From Pedobacter helvus (GTDB lineage Bacteria; Bacteroidota; Bacteroidia; Sphingobacteriales; Sphingobacteriaceae), in assembly GCF_005925325.1 (NCBI RefSeq), contig NZ_SRMP01000006.1, positions 124,001 to 188,000 on the forward strand: DNA of 64,000 bases. The letters are read 5' to 3'. Each line of letters begins with the position of its first letter. Positions within the stretch are counted from its first letter, which is position 1. A model generated the notes under the pieces. It had not been told where the DNA came from. It saw nothing but the letters and a program-made list of their open reading frames with translations, and searched no databases. The position numbers and the translations under genes were made by a program. Shown here one piece after another: positions 2,710 through 29,533 of the stretch.

Positions 2710-3609
2710 TTAAATGCGGTAAGTTCGAGGGGTTTGACTGGTCTGCTTTTTAAAGAAGTTATTGAAATGAGCGGGATCTTCGAAACCTAAAGTATAGCTA
2801 ATTTCCGAAATGTTCCAGTTCGTATGTTTTAGCAGTGCAATAGCTTCGGTTATTAAACGGTCTGCAATATGAGATGTAGTAGTTTTGCCAGTTGCTTTTT
2901 TTATTGCCCTGTTTAAATGATTGGTATGAACGTTCAGTTTTTCTGCAAAGTCTTTAGCAGAGCGAAGTTTGAATTGTTGCGATCGTGATTCTATAGGAAA
3001 CTGCCTTTCTAAAAGTTCTGTAAAAACTGCTGCGATACGAGAATTGGCATCGGCGTGTTTGTATAGCGTTTCTGAAGGTTGCAATTTCAAAGCACCATGG
3101 ATCATTTCCATAATATAATTGCGGATCAAATCAAATTTAAAAGCATAGTCTGATTTTAATTCCTCGATCATCTTCAAAAAAATGTGTGCAAAAGCATCGT
3201 CTTGCTGCTGCGTTAGTAAATAAGCCGGTTTCCCATTGGGCGAATACATCGGTAATTCTTTTAAGCTTCCACGGATATATTCTGCGAAAAAAGCATCCTT
3301 GAAAATACAGAAATAGCCTGTAGCATCTTCGGTTAGAGGCTCAAAAGTATAAGGCACTTCCGGATTAAAAAACATCAAAGTACTATCCGAAACTTCTAAG
3401 GTTTTATCGCCGTAATGGTAAAGATGTTTGCCTCTCATTAAGGCAATTTTGTAGAAATCTCTGCGGCTGTATTGTACTGGCGGTCTTCCGGGAGCATTAC
3501 ATTCCTCTAGCTTAAAAACATTAAAATGCCCCAAATCAGCGTTTATGCCATCAAACTTAAGATCGAACTTACGTTCGTAAAAATCTGCTAGGGTTTCTAA
3601 AGGTTCCAT
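2710..3609 (-). CDS. AraC-family transcriptional regulator
   Basis: 299 aa. The C-terminal ~80 residues contain the two helix-turn-helix units of AraC/XylS proteins: SAKDFAEKLNVHTNHLNRAI and then ISEISYTLGFEDPAHFNNFF, ending FKKQTSQTPRTYR. The N-terminal ~200 residues resemble a cupin-like sensing domain (STLMFFNPEVPYTFEPL). It lies 97 bases downstream of a short-chain dehydrogenase on the same strand, separated by a strong hairpin, so the two are probably separate transcripts. Such AraC plus SDR pairs are frequent in this phylum, and the regulator may control the dehydrogenase; that is inference. Confidence 0.88.
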   Translation of the reverse strand: MEPLETLADFYERKFDLKFDGINADLGHFNVFKLEECNAPGRPPVQYSRRDFYKIALMRGKHLYHYGDKTLEVSDSTLMFFNPEVPYTFEPLTEDATGYFCIFKDAFFAEYIRGSLKELPMYSPNGKPAYLLTQQQDDAFAHIFLKMIEELKSDYAFKFDLIRNYIMEMIHGALKLQPSETLYKHADANSRIAAVFTELLERQFPIESRSQQFKLRSAKDFAEKLNVHTNHLNRAIKKATGKTTTSHIADRLITEAIALLKHTNWNISEISYTLGFEDPAHFNNFFKKQTSQTPRTYRI

Positions 3610-3650
3610 ATTGTAAATTTAAAACATTTATATTTAGATTGCTAAACATG

Positions 3651-3681
3651 AAAACTCAATCAGTATTTGCGATTGAGTTTT
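3651..3681 (-). terminator. Terminator after the short-chain dehydrogenase
   Basis: Perfect 11-bp stem AAAACTCAATC / GATTGAGTTTT with a 9-base loop, 26 bases past the dehydrogenase stop. The T-rich arm serves the minus strand. Confidence 0.7.
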
Positions 3682-3706
3682 CTTTGAGGTGATCATTTGT
3701 CAAAAT

Positions 3707-4552
3707 TTAATTAATAAAAGCTGTATTAGTAGCTAGTGATTTAAACTCTTCCATATCTTTTTGTATTAAATCAATTTTATCATTTGCCACTTTGTATGCA
3801 TCTGCCCCTAAAAATAAATGTAATGCGGGATCGCTTTGGTTAGCAACTGCTATCATTACATCAGCTGCTTTTTCTGGATCACCAGGTTGGTTAGCGTTAA
3901 TATCTTGCAAGTGCGCATTTTGAACTGCCCTTACATTTTGGTAAGCCTCAATTTCATTTTTAGGTTTAACAATTGAGCCACCCTCTAAAAAGCTTGTTCT
4001 AAAATATCCAGGCATTACCAAGCTCACATTAATACCAAAAGGCCTTGCTTCGTGATAAAGCGATTCGGTAAAACCATGTACCGCAAATTTAGTTGCACAG
4101 TAGATGCCAAATGCAGGGAAGCCACCAGAAAAACCACCTATTGAAGAAATATTAAAGATGTGTCCGTTTTTTTGTGCTCTTAAATAGGGCAATGCTTTAC
4201 GAATTACATTAAGCGACCCAAAAACATTTACATCAAAATTTGCTCTTGCTTCTTCGTCGGTTAATTCTTCTAAGCCTCCAATTAATCCGTATCCCGCATT
4301 GTTTACCACTACGTCAATGCTTCCAAAATGTTCTACTGCTTTGTCAATGGCTTTTGCAACATCTGATTCGTCTACAACATTCATTGCTAATGGTAAAAAA
4401 TTCGTGGTGTTTTCTTGTACTGCTTCTCTTAAAGCATCGATGGTACGAGATGTTGCGGCTACATTATAGCCTTGTGCTAATAGTTTTTTTGCTAGTGTTA
4501 ATCCGAGTCCTTTAGAGGCTCCAGTGATTAACCATGTTTTTCTTGTGTTCAT
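3707..4552 (-). CDS. Short-chain dehydrogenase/reductase (SDR)
   Basis: Classical SDR, 281 aa from the ATG at 4552. A longer frame reaches 4594, but the SDR core begins right after MNTRKTWLITGASKG, so 4552 (or the preceding ATG at 4555) is preferred. TGASKGLG (about 10-17) binds NAD(P). NNAG is near 84-87. The catalytic set is Ser136/137 in NISSIGG and Tyr151/Lys155 in YCATK. Cytosolic NAD(P)-dependent oxidoreductase; the substrate is unknown. It is closest in feel to the oxidoreductases found beside AraC regulators, as here. Confidence 0.9.
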   Translation of the reverse strand: MNTRKTWLITGASKGLGLTLAKKLLAQGYNVAATSRTIDALREAVQENTTNFLPLAMNVVDESDVAKAIDKAVEHFGSIDVVVNNAGYGLIGGLEELTDEEARANFDVNVFGSLNVIRKALPYLRAQKNGHIFNISSIGGFSGGFPAFGIYCATKFAVHGFTESLYHEARPFGINVSLVMPGYFRTSFLEGGSIVKPKNEIEAYQNVRAVQNAHLQDINANQPGDPEKAADVMIAVANQSDPALHLFLGADAYKVANDKIDLIQKDMEEFKSLATNTAFIN

Positions 4553-20023: not shown

Positions 20024-20097
20024 TCCTTCTTAGCTCAGCTGGTTAGAGCATCTGACTGTTAATCAGAGGGTCGCTGGTTCGAGCCCAGCAGAGGGAG
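20024..20097 (+). tRNA. tRNA-Asn (GTT), copy 1
   Basis: 74 nt cloverleaf: acceptor TCCTTCT / AGAGGGA, D arm GCTC...GAGC, anticodon loop CTGTTAA with GTT at 20058-20060, and T arm GCTGG-TTCGAGC-CCAGC. No CCA is encoded. It is identical to the second copy 63 bases downstream. Confidence 0.97.
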
Positions 20098-20098
20098 C

Positions 20099-20124
20099 AA
20101 AGCCTTACTTGAGTAGGGCTTTTT
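20099..20124 (+). terminator. Hairpin and T-tract after tRNA-Asn copy 1
   Basis: AGCC-t-TACT / AGTA-g-GGCT stem followed by TTTT. Confidence 0.65.
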
Positions 20125-20160
20125 ATTTGAAAAATTGATAACCATCCTTTCGAGGAAAAT

Positions 20161-20234
20161 TCCTTCTTAGCTCAGCTGGTTAGAGCATCTGACTGTTAAT
20201 CAGAGGGTCGCTGGTTCGAGCCCAGCAGAGGGAG
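20161..20234 (+). tRNA. tRNA-Asn (GTT), copy 2
   Basis: Identical in all 74 bases to the copy at 20024-20097; a tandem duplicate. It marks the left edge of the accessory island. Confidence 0.97.
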
Positions 20235-20553: not shown

Positions 20554-20970
20554 ATGGATATGGAAAACGCTACTAAAACTACACGCACTCACTTAGGAAG
20601 AAAGATTAGCCGCATACGCGAACTGCGTGGCATGAAACAGGATGCCTTAGCCGCAGAACTGGGCATTAGTCAACAAGCAGTAAGCAAACTAGAGCAGAGT
20701 GAAGAAATTGAGGACAGTACCTTGGAGAAAGTAGCGAAGGTTTTGGGAGTGACTAGCGAAGCTATAAAAAGTTTTACAGAAGAATCTGTGTTTAATTATT
20801 TCAATAATTTCAGCGGTCAAAGTATTAACCAAGGTCCCATTGGTTCCCATAATACTTGTAATTTCAATCCACTTGATAAATTGATGGAAGCTTTGGAAGC
20901 TAATAAAGAACTTTACGAGAGGTTGCTGGCAAGTGAGAGGGAAAAGGTAGAGATATTAAAGGGTAAGTAA
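20554..20970 (+). CDS. XRE-family helix-turn-helix regulator (138 aa)
   Basis: 138 aa. The HTH_3 domain is at about 13-68 (ISRIRELRGMKQDALAAELG, then ISQQAVSKLEQ). A linker with FNYFNNFSGQSINQGPIG leads into a C-terminal helical tail (PLDKLMEALEANKELYERLL, then a Glu/Lys-rich end) that may oligomerise. I recognise this regulator type as occurring in several copies in Sphingobacteriaceae genomes. It is on the plus strand, facing the minus-strand cassette genes. Its stop lies 13 bases from the boundary of the first cassette. An alternative start (MENATK) lies two codons in. Confidence 0.85.
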   Translation: MDMENATKTTRTHLGRKISRIRELRGMKQDALAAELGISQQAVSKLEQSEEIEDSTLEKVAKVLGVTSEAIKSFTEESVFNYFNNFSGQSINQGPIGSHNTCNFNPLDKLMEALEANKELYERLLASEREKVEILKGK

Positions 20971-20991
20971 CGCGTAGCTGCTGTTATGCGT
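20968..20991 (-). repeat. Truncated attC-like end of the cassette array
   Basis: On the minus strand ACGCATAACAGCAGC has the same left arm (TAACARC) as the complete sites, but only about 25 bases remain before the XRE stop codon, with a short AACGC/GCGTT pairing. Bases 20984-20991 (TTATGCGT) are the exact reverse complement of 21680-21687 at the other end of the segment. Confidence 0.6.
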
Positions 20992-21006
20992 TGCCATTCT
21001 TTCCAT

Positions 21007-21657
21007 TTAGATATTTCTCAAAGTCAAAAAGACGCCATTAACATCGTCAACAAATTGTCTAACTGATTTATTAAGTAGTTCAATTTTGTAAGGGTCGTGT
21101 AATAGCCCGAATACTTGTCCTCTGTTGTCAATTGCTATATAATTAACGTCTTCGAGGTCTTTTATTTGGTAGTAAGTCTTGCCGTCAACATCAAACTCTC
21201 CAAGATTTGTCAAGTCAAGTTGCTCACAAGTCAGACCGTTAACGAGTTTTTCGATTTTTGTGTCTGGGGCAAACTTGCTTTTACTTTTCTTAAATGATGA
21301 TAGGTCAATATGAAAATTGTTGAAGTCCAAAATATTTCTTTCAATCTCAAAGCCTATCCAAAGTCCTTCGTTAATCGTAATGTTCATTGGGAAAACCTGT
21401 CCGTCTTGTATAATAAGGATGCTTTCTAATTCAAAATGTTTCCCTTTGGTCATTGACTTATCGGATTGCGATGGGTCAAAGACTATGTAAAAGTGTCCTT
21501 TCAAAGAATGGTTTACTGAGAACCTTCTATAAAGTCCTTTATCAAGTCCGTTAGATAAAAATTGAAATTCAGCAGGCAACTGATTAAAGACTTTTCGGAA
21601 AAAGTCAAGTGCTTTTCCTTCAATCTTCCAACTTGTCTTTTTAAATAGCCCGAACAT
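21007..21657 (-). CDS. Cassette gene 1: hypothetical protein (216 aa)
   Basis: 216 aa, soluble, no signal peptide or membrane helix. It begins MFGLFKKTSWKIEG and is acidic/hydrophobic mixed. The middle region (VFPMNITINEGLWIGFEIER) reads as beta strands, and the end (YIAIDNRGQVFGLLHDPYKI) resembles the last strand and helix seen in SMI1/KNR4-type or other immunity-like proteins, but the match is too weak to name. It is the last cassette of the array in the minus direction; its stop is 15 bases from the array edge. The function is unknown. Confidence 0.8.
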   Translation of the reverse strand: MFGLFKKTSWKIEGKALDFFRKVFNQLPAEFQFLSNGLDKGLYRRFSVNHSLKGHFYIVFDPSQSDKSMTKGKHFELESILIIQDGQVFPMNITINEGLWIGFEIERNILDFNNFHIDLSSFKKSKSKFAPDTKIEKLVNGLTCEQLDLTNLGEFDVDGKTYYQIKDLEDVNYIAIDNRGQVFGLLHDPYKIELLNKSVRQFVDDVNGVFLTLRNI

Positions 21658-21680
21658 TGTTGTCTGTCTTTTTATGGTTA

Positions 21681-21812
21681 CGCATAACGGTTTGGGGCTT
21701 TGCGATGTTGGGGATTTTTAGCACTACTGTTCATACGAAGCACAAATATTGAGCCTTGTCCAAATGTTTCTACGAAGAACATCAGCCCCATAACGCAAAA
21801 CCGCTGTTATGT
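21681..21812 (-). repeat. attC-like site between cassettes 2 and 1
   Basis: 132 bases. Minus strand: outer arm ACATAAC...GTTATGCG. Inner pairings are GGTTT/AAACC, GGGGCT/AGCCCC and GATG/CATC, with unpaired bulges (an 8-base one and a GCAA), enclosing a variable loop of about 70 bases. Ends at 21806-21812 (GTTATGT) and 21681-21688 (CGCATAAC). Bulged imperfect stems of this kind are what an integron integrase recognises as folded single strand. Confidence 0.75.
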
Positions 21813-21821
21813 GATGTGTTT

Positions 21822-22517
21822 CTACTTAGTTTGATTTTTATGTCGCCCTGTTTTGAATATTTCCAATGCCGTTTCTTGTTGTTTTCTTGTCAAGTTACTT
21901 GTCTCCATAGATAGAGCCGAATGGCTGTTTATTGATTTATTAAACCCATTCAAGGCTCGAATATAAATTCCTGTTCTGCCTTTTTGTGTGTCTTTTGACC
22001 ACACAATTTTTCTGTATTGGTTGTCAACTGTGTCAATTGAGTAATTCATTAGCTTGATTTCGTTTGGGATATAAACAGGAAAGTCAAATTCTGTTTGGTT
22101 GTGTTTGCATTTTGCAATATAGTCACAACCTTTTCCTATGGCGCTGTCTTGTTTTTTCGCAGGTCGAATACTAATAACCTTAACCTTCGGTGTATTGGTT
22201 TGGTCGTAAGTTATTCCTTCTTTCATAAAACGGTATGACAAATCATTTCGCCAAAATCCATTTTCTAAATATTCTTGTGGAATTTGTTCAAAGTCGTTAG
22301 AATAATAGCCAAAGTCAAAACCAAACAACATACTATCGCCGTTAATTTTTCCAACGTAGGAGTCAATTCCCTTTTCAGTAACTAATTCAAAGTCGGGAGG
22401 AAAGTCGAAAAAGTAGTCGCCAACTTCAATGGTTTTCCATTGTTCTTCTGGCTTTTTCTCCGTCTGTCCACAGCCGAATAAAAATATAGTTATTAGAATA
22501 GTCAGCAGTCGTTTCAT
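21822..22517 (-). CDS. Cassette gene 2: lipoprotein, hypothetical (231 aa)
   Basis: 231 aa. The lipoprotein signal is MKRLLTILITIFLFGC with Cys16. The mature part, about 30-225, includes WKTIEVGDYFFDFPPDFELV followed by a series of likely beta strands; Lys, Asp and Gln-rich. It resembles secreted PsbP/DUF-type lipoproteins of Bacteroidota but I do not recognise a named family. It starts 32 bases after its cassette boundary and stops 9 bases before its attC-like site, a compact layout typical of cassette genes. Confidence 0.82.
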   Translation of the reverse strand: MKRLLTILITIFLFGCGQTEKKPEEQWKTIEVGDYFFDFPPDFELVTEKGIDSYVGKINGDSMLFGFDFGYYSNDFEQIPQEYLENGFWRNDLSYRFMKEGITYDQTNTPKVKVISIRPAKKQDSAIGKGCDYIAKCKHNQTEFDFPVYIPNEIKLMNYSIDTVDNQYRKIVWSKDTQKGRTGIYIRALNGFNKSINSHSALSMETSNLTRKQQETALEIFKTGRHKNQTK

Positions 22518-22543
22518 TTATCGGCGTGTTTTTTTAGCATAGT

Positions 22544-22676
22544 ACATAACGGTTTGCAGGTTTAAGTTGAGCCTATTTTCTTGCACCAACTGCCCACAGT
22601 ACTAATCTAATAAATGGCTTCAAATTTTCGTGTTTGCACTTCGCCCGAAGCGTAACTTAAACCTGTTGTTAGGTGT
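22544..22676 (-). repeat. attC-like site between cassettes 3 and 2
   Basis: 133 bases. It holds the best stem of the set: CAGGTTTAAGTT (22557-22568) pairs perfectly with AACTTAAACCTG (22654-22665). Outer ends are ACATAAC (22544-22550) and GTTAGGTGT (22668-22676). GTTAGGT fits the integron core GTTRRRY exactly. Confidence 0.78.
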
Positions 22677-22684
22677 AGCTATGT

Positions 22685-23128
22685 TTATTCTTTTAACAAA
22701 AGTTCACTTTTTATAAATGAAACTCTAGTCAACAAAAGGTCTGCATTTTTCATTGTAGGTTCAGCTTGTACGGGATAACTGTCAGTTAAAGATTTTCCAC
22801 TTTTAACATTTTCAGACCAATCTTCCATTAATTCGCAATATACTTCCAAAGCTTCTGATGCAGTCTTTACACTTTTGTCGAGATAAACTGACGGGAGGTC
22901 GCCATTAATAATCCAAATAAAGTTGTCAACCTCAGATGAAGTTGGTTCAATTTCAAAAAGGAAAACTCCAATTTGGTTATAAATACTAAATTCTTTGTCG
23001 TACCAGCTATTTTTTATTGACTTGCACCAATTAAAAGATTGCAAATAGTTCTGGGCTTTTATCTGTAATTCTAAAACACACTTGAGTTCCTCGATTTCAG
23101 ATAGATTTTCGGTAGAGATTTCGTCCAT
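22685..23128 (-). CDS. Cassette gene 3: hypothetical protein (147 aa)
   Basis: 147 aa, acidic, soluble, predicted mostly helical. It starts MDEISTENLSEIEELKCVLE. A central part (VGVFLFEI-like, then DNFIWIINGDLPSVYLD) suggests a small alpha/beta fold. I recognise the general type, a small DUF-like cytosolic protein with 'INGDLPSVYL' and a later 'ALEVYCELMEDW', but cannot give it a function. It starts 31 bases from the cassette boundary and stops 9 bases before the attC-like site. Confidence 0.8.
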   Translation of the reverse strand: MDEISTENLSEIEELKCVLELQIKAQNYLQSFNWCKSIKNSWYDKEFSIYNQIGVFLFEIEPTSSEVDNFIWIINGDLPSVYLDKSVKTASEALEVYCELMEDWSENVKSGKSLTDSYPVQAEPTMKNADLLLTRVSFIKSELLLKE

Positions 23129-23158
23129 TCAATTTTATGCTAAAGATTGTTAATAGTT

Positions 23159-23294
23159 ACACCTAACGATTTGGGGCTTTGCGTTCGGGCGGGTTTCGGA
23201 GCATAAAGTTTCAATTTATTACTAAAGTTCATTAGAAACACAAAACTTCAAGTTTGTACGTCAGCCCGCCTTTTGGGTAGGTGCTGTTACCAGC
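23159..23294 (-). repeat. attC-like site between cassettes 4 and 3
   Basis: 136 bases. Outer ends are ACACCTAAC (23159-23167) and GTTACCAGC (23286-23294). Inner GGCGGG/CCCGCC pairing and a small internal palindrome AAACTTCAAGTTT are present. Its left side shares AACGRTTTGGGGCTTTGCG with the site at 21681, so the sites are related although cassette contents are not. Confidence 0.75.
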
Positions 23295-23326
23295 CGGTGT
23301 TCTATCAGTCATATTCCAAATTTCAT

Positions 23327-23662
23327 TTACCATTTATAACTTTTTTTGTCCAAATTGCTTGGTAGGTTTCGGATTTCAGTCCAATATCCTTCCCTTGCAT
23401 CTTCGTCAATATGAATTGGAAGCCTTTCTCCATAAAGTCTGTCGCTACCGTCCTTTTTGCAGCCGGAAATCCAATAATGTTCTCCCGTTTCAACGTCAAA
23501 ATAATTTGCCTTAAATCCTCGTCCACTTAAAGTCTGGAAAGTTTTTCCATTGTAGTGAATGGACTTTCCAGTCTTTGAGAATGTAACACGACCAATTCTT
23601 GCGTCACCAATTAAGTCATTTTCGCCACTCTTATTTTCAATATACATTATTCGTGTTTTCAT
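23327..23662 (-). CDS. Cassette gene 4b: small conserved protein (111 aa)
   Basis: 111 aa. It contains ARIGRVTFSKTGKSIHYNGK, then GRGFKANYFDVETGEHYWIS and a C-terminal DEDAREGYWTEIR. I recognise this as a widespread small family of unknown function that occurs often on mobile and cassette DNA, and that some databases have mislabelled as a DXP synthase fragment; it has none of that enzyme's thiamine-diphosphate motifs. It lies 3 bases after the 92-aa gene, so both are one transcript inside one cassette. Confidence 0.85.
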   Translation of the reverse strand: MKTRIMYIENKSGENDLIGDARIGRVTFSKTGKSIHYNGKTFQTLSGRGFKANYFDVETGEHYWISGCKKDGSDRLYGERLPIHIDEDAREGYWTEIRNLPSNLDKKSYKW

Positions 23663-23665
23663 AAG

Positions 23666-23944
23666 TCAAAACCAAAGTGCATTCATTTCGCTTAAAAATT
23701 GTTTGTCTGTAATTGGAAATTTAGAACTTAGAACAGAGTCTATTCCACATTTCGGACAAATTGCAGTTACACCGTCAGCAATGTTTTCTTCAATCCATTC
23801 TTCAATTTCTTTAGGTTCAAATGTCTGTTCGCAATAGAAACAACCACATAAATTACTGGCGAGAATTTCGTCTTTATGTGTAGAGCAACTTTTATGTGCT
23901 TGTTCTAAAAAGTCTCTACTATATTTAGTTTCTGTCGGTTTCAT
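23666..23944 (-). CDS. Cassette gene 4a: zinc-ribbon-like protein (92 aa)
   Basis: 92 aa. Two Cys pairs, CGCFYCEQTF (about 33-42) and CPKCGIDSV (about 63-71), form a likely zinc ribbon, with a helical PKEIEEWIEENI segment between them. The family is found as a small cytoplasmic protein of unknown function. It starts 6 bases from the cassette boundary and is followed directly by the 111-aa gene, an unusual two-gene cassette. Confidence 0.85.
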   Translation of the reverse strand: MKPTETKYSRDFLEQAHKSCSTHKDEILASNLCGCFYCEQTFEPKEIEEWIEENIADGVTAICPKCGIDSVLSSKFPITDKQFLSEMNALWF

Positions 23945-23950
23945 ACACTT

Positions 23951-24030
23951 GCTGGTAACTCGTATATATGCACTACTCTATGGCGGCAATCCACCCAGAA
24001 TAGGAGGTATTTGCGAAGTTGAGTAGCGTA
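23951..24030 (-). repeat. Right-end recombination-site remnant of the array
   Basis: The boundary GCTGGTAAC (23951-23959) is complementary to the far end of cassette 4. Beyond it CTACTC (23973-23978) pairs with GAGTAG (24021-24026), extended by ATA/TAT. It is less like the other sites (minus strand ACGAGTTACC in place of AAAYCGTTA), so it may be a different attC, a primary attachment site or a degraded site. Confidence 0.5.
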
Positions 24031-24756
24031 TTATTTTATTCTAAATATAGAGAATATTCATCAAAATCCTTAAAAGAGCCGATTATGAATTAAGTGTTTC
24101 AATTCTAACCAAAACTTCATATCTTTTTACTATGGGTTTTTTAAGCGATTTGTTGACTTGCTTATATTAAATTGTAGGTTTGTCGGAAGAACACCGTCAA
24201 TCCAAAGTGGCTGAAAATCAAAATAACAGTTGCTTTCAAGAAAAAAAAGGCAGTTCCAAGCCTAAAGCGCAGTGATTTGGTGTAAACATCTCACCGTTCT
24301 TTCATTAAGCGCAAACTAACAAATTCCGAATGGCCCAATCAGGCAAATAAAATAGTAAAAGCTAATTAAACAAAGTGCGCTATTTTTTCGATAAGTATGG
24401 GAGCATGTGTGAAGCCGCTTAGCTGGATTGACAAGTATTTTTGTAAACTTTGGTGCCTCAGCCTGCGATGTAAGCGAGAGCTATTAAAAACATAAAAGTC
24501 AGTGAAAAAAGTAAAAGCGCCTGCGGCAGCGATCCATCATTAAACTCAAACGTAGCACCGACGGAGGACCGACGGTAGACCGACGGTGGAACAGCACCCC
24601 TTAAACGACAATTCCGACGATAACAGACAAAAAACGCAAAATAAACCACAAACCGCCAAACCCGACACGCCCTAATTTTCTACTGCCCAACTTTATACCA
24701 AGCATTCGCTACCAAGCGTGTAAATTTTACTCATTAATCACATTTTTAAACAGAAA
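24031..24756. other. Gene-poor island segment with a short tandem repeat
   Basis: About 730 bases without a credible gene; short frames here lack coding character. Three 11-base units, ACCGACGGAGG, ACCGACGGTAG and ACCGACGGTGG, lie in tandem at 24557-24589. The rest is unassigned; part may be the leader of the pseudogene that follows. Confidence 0.5.
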
Positions 24757-24760
24757 AAAC

Positions 24761-25098
24761 ATGGCAAAGTCAGAAAACAATGAAATAATGTTTGGTGCCC
24801 GCGGCAGAGTGGGCAACCTAGTGATTTTCAAAAAAATTGGAAGAACCAAACGGTAATCGCCAAAAGACCAAGACGACCAGACAATCCGGTGCATACAGCA
24901 AAACAGATAGAAGTAAAGCAAAAATTTAGGGAAGCGGTGGTTTGCGCAAAAGGCGTCATTAGCAACCCAGATCTAGCGGCTAGCTATTTGGTTTCCGCTA
25001 AGCCAGGTACATCCGTCTATAATTTGGCCTTGGCAGATTATGCGAAGCCGAAGAAATCACCTCGGCTAGAAATACTTAATGCCAGCGCAGCTCTCTAA
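24761..25098 (+). pseudogene. Frameshifted, truncated MAKSENN-type conserved protein
   Basis: Frame 1 from ATG at 24761 reads MAKSENNEIMFGARGRVGNL then VIFKK and stops at 24854. One base off, the reading continues NQTVIAKRPRRPDNPVHTAK, then QKFREAVVCAKGVISNPDLA, and later SVYNLALADYAK, ending at 25098. Adding one A to the A7 run near 24830 joins them. I recognise the whole as a Bacteroidota family of about 200 aa starting 'GRVGxLV.FK.W', of unknown function. Here the last ~90 residues are also missing, so it is a decayed copy. Confidence 0.75.
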
Positions 25099-25159
25099 AT
25101 AACAAGTTTGTATATGCATCGCAACTTTTTCTGTGCTGAGAAAATAAGCGCCATAAGAC

Positions 25160-25189
25160 AAAAAAGCCTCACATTTCTGCAAGGCTTTT
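25160..25189 (-). terminator. Terminator of tRNA-Phe copy 1
   Basis: AAAAGCCT / AGGCTTTT stem with TGCA/TGTG-type inner pairing and a minus-strand T tract; 7 bases past the tRNA 3' end. It is the right-hand member of the direct repeat with 20325-20352. Confidence 0.88.
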
Positions 25190-25195
25190 GGGAAG

Positions 25196-25268
25196 TGGTG
25201 CCTGCTGGGATCGAACCAGCGACACAAGGATTTTCAGTCCTTTGCTCTACCTACTGAGCTAAGGCACC
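25196..25268 (-). tRNA. tRNA-Phe (GAA), copy 1
   Basis: 73 nt cloverleaf: acceptor GGTGCCT / AGGCACC, D arm GCTC...GAGC, anticodon loop CTGAAAA (GAA is the complement of 25233-25235), and T arm GCTGG-TTCGATC-CCAGC. CCA is not encoded. The next copy is identical. Confidence 0.97.
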
Positions 25269-25396
25269 TCCCGTTTGGGAATGCAAATGTAACTTCTTTT
25301 TTCTAAAAGCAAAATTTTATTGATTTATTTTAATGAAGCCAAATGTCTAATTTATCTTCCAAAAACAATGATCTAGTTGTTGGAAAAAACAGAAAT

Positions 25397-25427
25397 AAAA
25401 AAGCCTCACATTTCTGCAAGGCTTTTG
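25397..25427 (-). terminator. Terminator of tRNA-Phe copy 2
   Basis: Same stem-loop as at 25160, followed by T on the minus strand; 4 bases past the tRNA 3' end. Confidence 0.88.
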
Positions 25428-25431
25428 GAAG

Positions 25432-25504
25432 TGGTGCCTGCTGGGATCGAACCAGCGACACAAGGATTTTCAGTCCTTTGCTCTACCTACTGAGCTAAGG
25501 CACC
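25432..25504 (-). tRNA. tRNA-Phe (GAA), copy 2
   Basis: Identical to 25196-25268. Similarity continues into the terminator and the 5' flank (CTCCCGTTTGGGA then TGCAAATGTA), so a unit of about 236 bases was duplicated in tandem. Confidence 0.97.
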
Positions 25505-25737
25505 TCCCGTTTGGGATTGCAAATGTAGCTATCTTTTTTTAAAGACAAAATTATTTTAAATAAATAATCTAAGTTGCGTGTGGAAAAAGCTTTCCAAGCC
25601 TAGAAATCAACTAATTAATTTTTACCAAATGCCTGCTGTAATTCATAACCGTTCTAAATTTTATAAATTATGCATGCATAGTAAATGTTTTAAAACGAAT
25701 TATTTTAACTTCGTTGTACCATTAGGGTAGATATATT

Positions 25738-27033
25738 ATGGTTTCACAAATTATATTCGTCATTTTGGCCTTGGCAGGCACTGCTCTATTTGCTTACAAT
25801 GCTCGCAAGGTAATTCGCAATATCAAATTGGGTAGAGCTGTTAATCGTACAGATAAACCTCAGGAGAGATTGTTTACTATGTTGAAGGTTGCTTTTGGGC
25901 AAACCAAGATGGCTGTGAGACCAGTGCCATTTTTCTTACACCTTATCGTTTACCTAGGTTTTGTGATCATCAACCTAGAGGTATTAGAAATTGTAATAGA
26001 CGGCGTTTTCGGAACACATCGTGTTTTTGCGGGCTTAGGTGGTTTCTATAACTTCCTTATAGGTAGCTTCGAGTTTTTAGCTGCGGGTGTGTGGCTTGCC
26101 TGCGCCATTTTTCTGATCCGTAGAAATGTTGTTAAAATCAAACGTTTCTCTGGTGTGGAGATGAAAAACTGGCCAAAGTCTGATGCCAATTATATTCTCA
26201 TCACAGAGATTTTGTTAATGACGGCTTTCTTAACTATGAACGCTGCCGATGTGAAATTACAAGCTTTAGGTGCAGCTCACTACATCGAGGCTGGTTCATT
26301 TCCAGTAAGTACTTGGCTGGTTAATTTGTTGCCAAGTAACGTTGATAGTTTAATTTTTATTGAACGTTTCTGTTGGTGGTTCCATATTGTAGGTATTTTC
26401 GCTTTCTTAAATTACCTGCCGTACTCTAAGCACTTCCATATCATGTTGGCTTTCCCTAACACTTACTTCTCTAACCTGAAGCCAAAGGGACAGTTCACTA
26501 ACATGGATAGTGTGACGAATGAAGTAAAAGCAATGCTTGATCCTTCTTTTGTACCAGCAGATGTTGCCCCGGGCAGATTCGGGGCGAAAGATGTTCAGGA
26601 TTTGAGCAGGGTAAATTTATTGAACGCTTATACCTGTACAGAATGTGGAAGATGTACTTCAGTGTGTCCAGCTAACATTACTGGCAAGCTGCTTTCTCCT
26701 CGTAAAATTATGATGGATACCCGCGATCGCATGGAGGAAGTAGGTAAAAACATCGATAAGTATGGAGTAGAACACCAAGATGGAAAATCGTTGTTAGACG
26801 ATTATATCACAAGAGAAGAAATTTGGGCTTGTACAAGTTGTAATGCCTGTGTAGAAGCCTGTCCAGTTAATATCGATCCTTTAGAAATTATTGTAGAATT
26901 GAGACGTTATGCGGTGATGGAAGAATCGGTCGCTCCAGCAAGTATCAATGCAATGCTAGGTAACGTAGAAAATAATGGCGCTCCTTGGAAATATTCTCCA
27001 GCCGATAGATTTAATTGGACGCAAGAGAGTTAA
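25738..27033 (+). CDS. Membrane-bound 4Fe-4S dicluster protein (HdrC-like fused to membrane domain)
   Basis: 431 aa. The N-terminal ~250 residues carry about five hydrophobic helices with His residues suitable for heme b (related to the NarI/HdrE-type membrane domain). The C-terminal part has two ferredoxin-type clusters, CTECGRCTSVCP (about 302-313) and CTSCNACVEACPVN (about 365-378). With the next gene it matches the HdrC/HdrB-like or GlpC-like modules that move electrons between the quinone pool and a soluble donor. The donor or acceptor is unknown. Confidence 0.85.
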   Translation: MVSQIIFVILALAGTALFAYNARKVIRNIKLGRAVNRTDKPQERLFTMLKVAFGQTKMAVRPVPFFLHLIVYLGFVIINLEVLEIVIDGVFGTHRVFAGLGGFYNFLIGSFEFLAAGVWLACAIFLIRRNVVKIKRFSGVEMKNWPKSDANYILITEILLMTAFLTMNAADVKLQALGAAHYIEAGSFPVSTWLVNLLPSNVDSLIFIERFCWWFHIVGIFAFLNYLPYSKHFHIMLAFPNTYFSNLKPKGQFTNMDSVTNEVKAMLDPSFVPADVAPGRFGAKDVQDLSRVNLLNAYTCTECGRCTSVCPANITGKLLSPRKIMMDTRDRMEEVGKNIDKYGVEHQDGKSLLDDYITREEIWACTSCNACVEACPVNIDPLEIIVELRRYAVMEESVAPASINAMLGNVENNGAPWKYSPADRFNWTQES

Positions 27034-29077: not shown

Positions 29078-29533
29078 AAGGAACTAGAATTTATAAATTA
29101 GTGGCTGAGTAAATCTTCGTTCAGTTTTTCAACGCAAATTAGTCCCGCTATCCGCTATATCTTTTCGCTGCGCTTCAAGTATGCCGCTCCTATCGGGTTT
29201 AAGAAACCTAAACCTGTGCACTGTATTTGCCAGCTAAACCCGATTGAAACGGTAATACTTTTTGTTTAATATCTTGTCATACCGAACGCTAGTGAAGGAT
29301 CTGTTTGTTAGAGAAGTTACAATATAGATTCCTCGTTCCTGGGAATGACAGGAGTAATTAATACAAAAAGATTATAGTGAAAAGCGGGACTACAGGAACC
29401 GATATCACATTGCAACTGCTTTTCTAATTAAAAATTCCCAGCACCTGAGCGCTGAAACCTAACCACTAGGTCCTAGTACCTGGAAAAAACAACCTTCATA
29501 ATTATTTGTTATCTTAACTTACAAATACCATTT
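29078..29533. other. Intergenic region made of dispersed repeats
   Basis: No gene. It holds a segment with AAACCCGATTG near 29233 and AGCGGGACTACAGG near 29382, which reappears in another form at 33870-33955, and TTGTCATACCGAACG...GGGAATGACA (29274-29350), a repeat pattern common in intergenic DNA of this family. The asmA-like gene follows. Confidence 0.55.

Follow-up and report, generated by a model that had tools for sequence, protein, structure and literature searches.

A Cassette Array in Pedobacter helvus

The window analysed here is a 64,000-nt stretch of the Pedobacter helvus genome. At positions 20984–23958 it holds four gene cassettes with five genes, all of them minus-strand open reading frames (ORFs). 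Read along that strand, the order is an attI-like leader, i.e., a sequence resembling the attachment site of integrons, followed by cassettes 1 to 4 (Table 1). No recombinase gene is found near the array. The locus is, with high probability, a cassette platform without a recombinase gene of its own within an integron-type system; the recombinase is likely an enzyme encoded on another contig of the same genome, C1, or a close relative of it acting in trans.

The original prediction was that each gene-bearing segment is bounded by short sequences that are exact reverse complements and differ from segment to segment. Read directly from the sequence, all four pairs are indeed exact. The palindromes expected between the genes, of about 132–136 bp, are three in number and measure 133, 133 and 136 nt. 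The genes do share one strand, but their stop codons are not all within 3–15 bases of the sites: three genes have a gap of ~8–15 nt, and gene 4 has one of ~32 nt. The count of four cassettes stands with two amendments. The 3′ site of the fourth is truncated, its remaining first arm adjoining the stop codon of a helix-turn-helix (HTH) gene with no match to the site model R2 (see below) after the cassette, and the element at 23949–24060 is the leader, not a cassette site.

Table 1. Features of the array locus, in window coordinates; the bar marks the insertion point.
Feature	Position	Strand	Details
attI-like leader	23949–24060	−	insertion point between G 23959 and T 23958; core TATATACGAG|TTACC at 23968–23959
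Promoter-like TATATTTA in leader, possible cassette promoter (Pc)	24042–24049	−	from sequence only
Boundary pair TTACCAGC / GCTGGTAA	23287–23294 / 23951–23958		exact reverse complement
Boundary pair TTAGGTGT / ACACCTAA	22669–22676 / 23159–23166		exact reverse complement
Boundary pair TTATGT / ACATAA	21807–21812 / 22544–22549		exact reverse complement
Boundary pair TTATGCGT / ACGCATAA	20984–20991 / 21680–21687		exact reverse complement
Cassette 1, two genes	23167–23958	−	start TTACCAGC, own 3′ arm GCTGGTAA
Gene 5, 92 aa, Cys-rich	23666–23944	−	ORF
Gene 4, 111 aa	23327–23662	−	ORF; DUF7376 E 0.025, under cut-off
attC-like site, cassette 1	23159–23294	−	R2 57.6 bits; left out of R2 building
Cassette 2	22550–23166	−	start TTAGGTGT, own arm ACACCTAA
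Gene 3, 147 aa	22685–23128	−	ORF; DUF4826 E 8e-4, under cut-off
attC-like site, cassette 2	22544–22676	−	R2 76 bits; part of R2 building set
Cassette 3	21688–22549	−	start TTATGT, own arm ACATAA
Gene 2, 231 aa	21822–22517	−	ORF; N-terminus lipoprotein-like by eye; no Pfam match
attC-like site, cassette 3	21680–21812	−	R2 94.3 bits; part of R2 building set
Cassette 4, 3′ site truncated to first arm	20984–21687	−	start TTATGCGT, arm ACGCATAA
Gene 1, 216 aa	21007–21657	−	ORF; no Pfam match
HTH gene, closes platform, conserved flank	20554–20970	+	HTH_3 domain

A Family of Hairpin Sites

A covariance model of the sites, R2, was built with a hand-written structure from nine sites, seven of contig C1 and two of the window. 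In this building set 82.7% of cells pair, a share that drops to 31–43% if the partner is shifted along; in 12 of the 25 pairs both members vary. In the 4.6-Mb P. helvus genome, R2 finds 16 sites at E ≤0.1 (150 of 911 first-look candidates scored). All lie within four clusters, as follows: eight on C1, three in the window, three on C6 and two on C8. Nine of these sites built R2, so that their matches follow by construction; the remaining seven are independent. Palindromes scattered through the genome outside cassettes, named beforehand as evidence against a cassette array, are thus not what is seen. The array's sites belong instead to a family seen across the phylum, in keeping with the integron-like array that had been proposed: at E 1e-5, R2 sites occur in at least 117 of 296 phylum genomes. 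Their length is 133–136 nt in the window and about 90–210 nt elsewhere.

Run over the collected loci at E 0.1, R2 gave 155 matches in 84 sources, of which the 150 best were aligned; locus L048, where the match ends at residue 338, was excluded from the linkage and attI counts given below. The hairpin was examined in the 136 of 144 sites that have exact AAC and GTT, anchored on those triplets alone and without gaps, the sites themselves having originally been found with R2. Base-pair excess is strong at a single offset, with a summed z of 147, and stays <18 elsewhere. A nearly fixed unpaired A (134/136) faces about five bases that mostly end in AAC or ACC. Fifteen bases in, 98 of the 136 sites have an A·C mismatch; the two positions beside it are paired in 70 and 72% of sites, with varying bases. 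Of 144 sites, 118 are more stable when folded as the bottom strand, i.e., the strand opposite to the genes, versus 67 of 153 random pieces, and the same is true of all six sites folded individually. Folded singly, the window sites show no unusual stability (z −0.06 to −2.3). Thus, as in integron attC, hairpin geometry is kept while sequence changes, unpaired landmarks are conserved and the bottom strand is the stabler, with a weak signal from single-sequence folding. These landmarks and the strand bias suggest that the sites are recognised as a folded bottom strand, as attC is.

The Cassette Junction

In a plain palindrome, the outer arms match each other. At a cassette junction, the cassette start matches its own end instead. 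The two cases were compared over the seven bases beyond the anchor, with 6 opposite-strand copies excluded. Cassette starts match their own 3′ ends at 6.04 of 7 bases, and 76 of 93 cassettes reach 6 or 7. The two outer arms of one palindrome agree at only 3.12 of 7 bases (10 of 144 sites at 6 or 7), against 2.80 of 7 for random pairs. First cassettes, those directly behind an attI core, reach 5.71 of 7 (29 of 35 at 6 or 7 bases). Since starts match own ends, first cassettes included, the crossover is placed between G and TT. That is, a cassette begins with bases complementary to the first arm of its own site, the relation known from integrons of the IntI type. The longest frame runs in the array direction in 85 of 93 cassettes.

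An Insert-Less Recombinase Family

Contig C1 carries a complete system (locus L015), all on one strand: a recombinase gene (3216–4265), an attI-like AAG|TTACCTGC ~100 nt behind it, and eight sites. The right arm of the window sites recurs 2.4 and 4.4 kb behind the recombinase frame (at most 3 mismatches; 6 matches in total, with 5 for a reversed control pattern). One C1 cassette gene (L015:5178–5732) scores above cut-off for RNA 2′-phosphotransferase.

The C1 recombinase is a 349-aa tyrosine recombinase with an intact frame and the domains Phage_int_SAM_4 and Phage_integrase. It is the best piece of its genome for the NCBIfam integron integrase (IntI) model, TIGR02249, scoring 185.4 bits in two pieces against a cut-off of 265; with the XerA-type model, NF040815, it scores 203.3 bits (cut-off 220). 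The IntI-specific insert is present in 12 of 12 compared IntIs (IntI1 of R388 and 11 from the phylum) and absent from the four family rows aligned with them and from all 19 rows of family alignment A2. Because it lacks the insert and scores under the cut-off, the C1 recombinase is not an IntI. The array had been called integrase-less, and an IntI-type recombinase with the insert was to be sought in the rest of the genome. It is integrase-less in that the locus has no recombinase gene, and the genome has no IntI over the NCBIfam cut-off; it does, however, have a candidate recombinase elsewhere, the insert-less enzyme of C1.

The recombinase has an extra N-terminal domain. Residues 1–58 are predicted to fold as β-β-α-β-β-α (pLDDT 90), and the best PDB sequence match of their profile is the HARP domain of SMARCAL1, at E 0.012. 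HARP is a structure-specific DNA-binding domain, and the likeness is taken here as a lead only. A group of plasmid recombinases from Acinetobacter and relatives, one named TnpF, is 49% identical over residues 83–349 only and, since the identity is so confined, these proteins seem to be without the N-terminal domain.

Homologs are 64–98% identical among the 120 best listed of 8000 scored. A scan of genome contigs with 19 of these homologs yielded 549 loci, the best 80 of which include records of Flavobacterium, Pedobacter, Kaistella, Algoriphagus, Cyclobacterium, Chitinophagaceae, Bacteroidales and Ignavibacteria. Two Chryseobacterium plasmids encode a family recombinase, one (L116) with five downstream R2 matches and one (L117) with none. 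A contig filed as an Azoarcus metagenome-assembled genome (L058) also has one, reflecting either mis-binning or transfer between phyla. In a quick tree, with a thin, long-branched outgroup, the family (50 rows) and IntI (12 rows) form separate supported groups among other recombinases of the phylum, and the Xer proteins of the host fall outside.

Linkage of Sites and Recombinase

In the 79 loci with a mapped recombinase end, 131 sites lie downstream on the same strand, one lies upstream and three are on the other strand, with twice as much upstream DNA available. A site is found in 44 of the 79, and in 38 of the 43 in which the DNA downstream extends to 1.5 kb or more. For whole genomes, the core family was defined as matches of >430 bits, and at most 11 site candidates were scored per genome, so that site counts are lower bounds. 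Of 30 genomes with the core family, 28 have sites. In the phylum, 84 of the 296 genomes have an IntI over the NCBIfam cut-off, and 83 of these belong to classes other than that of the window; sites occur in 21 of these 84, and in 4 of the 59 that have IntI and no family match. Among 12 fetched IntI loci, there are three weak R2 matches, in two loci.

The recombinase gene is also linked to an attI-like point. In 65 of 80 loci the core TA[AT][AT]N4AG|TT lies no more than 220 nt past the end of the recombinase alignment (median 92 nt), versus 210 of 4000 random pieces, and TAnnTTTG precedes the core in 39 of the 65, versus 175 of 3000 random pieces. TAnnTTTG is presumably a Bacteroidota promoter motif, and the window leader probably carries a promoter of its own, judging by its sequence. 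Thus, the loci of the family have an attI point beside the recombinase gene with cassette entry at G|TT, as IntI integrons do.

Exchange of Contents behind a Common Leader

Three loci have a common leader (93–95%) followed by different genes: the window, contig C8 of the same genome, and contig C49 of G393, another species of the genus that has a core-family recombinase elsewhere. The window leader is 94.6% identical to that of C8 (L115:2553–2664) and 93.3% identical over 105 nt to that of G393. In G393:C49 the flanks follow in the same order, with window 24539–26000 at 79–82%, the leader at 90% and the HTH gene at 81% (420 nt), and the leader-to-HTH distance is about 6 kb rather than the 3 kb of the window. 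C8 has the same flanks at 88–91% (HTH region 91% over 266 nt) with other genes between. None of the window cassettes was found in G393:C49 or C8 at E 1e-8. Conversely, a 93% identical copy of gene 5 stands in G393:C24 behind unrelated DNA, with visible identity from GAG|TTACC; BLAST extends the match some ten A+T-rich bases past this visible junction.

Relatives keeping the same gene order with no change at G|TT would have told against cassettes. The G393 locus keeps the flanks and leader and has other contents, and its identity with the window ends at AG|TTA. Cassette exchange at the junction, as in IntI integrons, is therefore seen by comparison, from three leaders and one reciprocal case.

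Genes and Elements around the Array

Gene 5 has no match in Pfam or NCBIfam; PADLOC gives a weak match to PtuB (E 2.8e-4). At gathering scores, Rfam finds no family at the array locus. Each side of the platform has a tandem pair of tRNA genes with equal scores, at 20024 and 20161 (window 20024–20234) and at 25196 and 25432 (window 25196–25504). Two Flavo-1 RNA matches above gathering score lie on opposite strands at 29137–29395.

Relation to Known Systems

The system has in common with sedentary chromosomal integrons (IntI/attI/attC) a recombinase, an attI-like point, a cassette array, the G|TT crossover and a hairpin site for each cassette. It differs from IntI integrons in that the recombinase lacks the insert, scores under the IntI cut-off and has an extra N-terminal domain, and in having its own attI and site sequences. 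The layout also differs. A classical intI gene is usually transcribed away from the array; the family recombinase is co-oriented with its array, the sites lying downstream on the same strand. Two loci (L245, L246) have recombinases without an N-terminal match, and the nearby sites are on the opposite strand, pointing away, like the classical layout.

The window array, in which R2 finds three sites, resembles a CALIN (cluster of attC sites lacking integron-integrases) as a site cluster without a recombinase gene. Unlike a CALIN, it has an attI-like leader, and its sites go with a recombinase family other than IntI. The XerA-type tyrosine recombinases (NF040815; PDB 4a8e, 5hxy) give the C1 enzyme its best NCBIfam score and the best sequence and structure matches of its catalytic part. 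It differs from them in falling under the NF040815 cut-off, and in its N-terminal domain and linked cassette array.

In Riemerella anatipestifer, according to the excerpts of PMC13148043 drawn on here, a resistance gene with 27-bp 5′ and 140-bp 3′ flanks enters the chromosome without homology, and the 3′ flank shows attC-like folding. The authors call the capture mechanism not fully elucidated, and these excerpts name no recombinase. A Bacteroidota host and attC-like folding 3′ of the gene are what that process has in common with the present system. Excerpts of other papers report that only In0 was previously known in Bacteroidetes, a complete integron now being described in Salinibacter, besides Chlorobi and Ignavibacteriae (PMC9024848), and that in an integron-like subgroup the insert is not fully conserved, yet is called essential for integron function (PMC8138268). 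Further literature on the subject, likewise drawn on in part, is found in PMC8352920, PMC9668308, PMC8618304, PMC2426708 and PMC4792948. No description of such a system was found in the open PMC literature (preprints not covered).

Weighing the Interpretation

Several observations weigh against the proposed cassette platform served by the C1 enzyme. R2 was built from sites of the same genome. Of the 79 family loci, 35 have no R2 site; most of these have little downstream DNA, but they include 5 of the 43 with at least 1.5 kb. Sites also occur in 89 of 266 genomes without the core family. Of 13 genomes chosen because they contain sites or window-like DNA, 11 are without a core-family gene, and the other two, G393 and G418, have one. 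Of the 11, G080 gives a more distant match (311 bits), eight give matches of 152–179 bits only and two give none at E 1e-40. With many site-bearing genomes thus lacking the core recombinase, the enzyme may have been lost, may be missing from assemblies or may be a different one where sites stand alone. In the C1 recombinase itself, residue 322, in the LLGH motif, is Arg, where the other 18 A2 rows all have His; this copy may therefore be impaired. In G393, R2 detects no more than two sites over the 6 kb that follow the leader, so that only part of that stretch is shown to consist of cassettes. The first cassettes of the window and C8 have ten bases in common (TTACCAGCAA) after the G before they differ, and identity of the two leaders accordingly runs ten bases past the G. 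Finally, the distal array boundary is the HTH stop codon, with no clean G|TT in C8 and G393. As a separate observation, five genomes (G079, G126, G132, G137 and G269) have 9–10 matched sites each and no core-family recombinase was found in them.

The cassettes could have been made and moved by the ordinary IntI of other bacteria and dropped here as a classical CALIN, the linked recombinase being a coincidence. The sites do have AAC...GTT and the G|TT crossover in common with attC, and true IntI occurs in the phylum, in part together with R2 sites. But IntI loci give next to no R2 matches, genomes with IntI and no family match seldom have sites, over half of the family loci have sites behind the recombinase on its strand, and P. 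helvus has no over-cut-off IntI; we regard this origin as improbable. A role of the host XerC/XerD in place of the linked recombinase appears more improbable again. Xer proteins are used by other elements, and the 152–179-bit matches in site-bearing genomes without the core family are taken for Xer proteins; the sites, however, are linked to and co-occur with the core family, and the attI-like core stands directly behind the core-family gene.

Palindromic, intergenic and recurring across genomes, the sites might also be ordinary repeats of the REP/ERIC or terminator-like type that separate genes by chance. Their outer arms match each other barely above random, whereas cassette starts match their own ends; moreover, the sites of the genome are confined to four clusters, and the contents between fixed flanks vary. 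Chance repeats are scarcely credible on this evidence. A dead platform, in which sites and leader are relics and no recombination now occurs in this strain, has a good deal more in its favour, namely the truncated last window site, the unusual Arg of the C1 recombinase and the several genomes with sites and no core recombinase. Against it stands the intact frame of that recombinase, adjoining an array of eight sites. We consider present inactivity doubtful, if clearly the likeliest of these alternatives; it is compatible with an integron-type origin of the array, which is what the proposed platform concerns.

A Proposed Mechanism

By comparison, the junction rule, the hairpin architecture, the varied contents behind one leader, the association of sites with the recombinase and the missing IntI insert are established. 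We suggest the following mechanism. A fixed attI-like leader would receive circular gene cassettes, each ending in a site that would fold into one imperfect hairpin. Crossover would take place between G and TT, so that TTRnnnn would stand at the start of a cassette and the complementary arm would close it. Most likely, the enzyme would be the C1 tyrosine recombinase or a close relative, supplied in trans and built of a XerA/IntI-like catalytic part without the IntI insert and an extra N-terminal domain. C1-type recombinases would catalyse the cassette reaction on a single-stranded substrate. The folded bottom strand would probably be recognised by its hairpin geometry, with the N-terminal domain binding the hairpins.

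A wider proposal is offered tentatively, as one we hold to be somewhat less probable than otherwise. The phylum may have an integron lineage of its own, whose XerA/IntI-like recombinase has no IntI helix and acts on folded single-stranded sites. The N-terminal HARP/XPB-like domain of this recombinase would recognise hairpins as the insert does in IntI. Such an enzyme might feed several recombinase-less platforms in trans, and might be the engine of the homology-free gene capture reported in the phylum.

Significance

Among the gene-capture machines of bacteria, integrons are the classic case, and the IntI insert is regarded as a requirement of their integrase. The system described here works like an integron and is not an IntI integron. 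It would amount to a gene-exchange system missed by insert-based detection; 30 of 296 phylum genomes have the core family, and at least one plasmid has a family recombinase together with sites. The system allows a direct test of how single-strand recombination arose in integrons, and its mechanism is a candidate for the homology-free capture of genes in the phylum.

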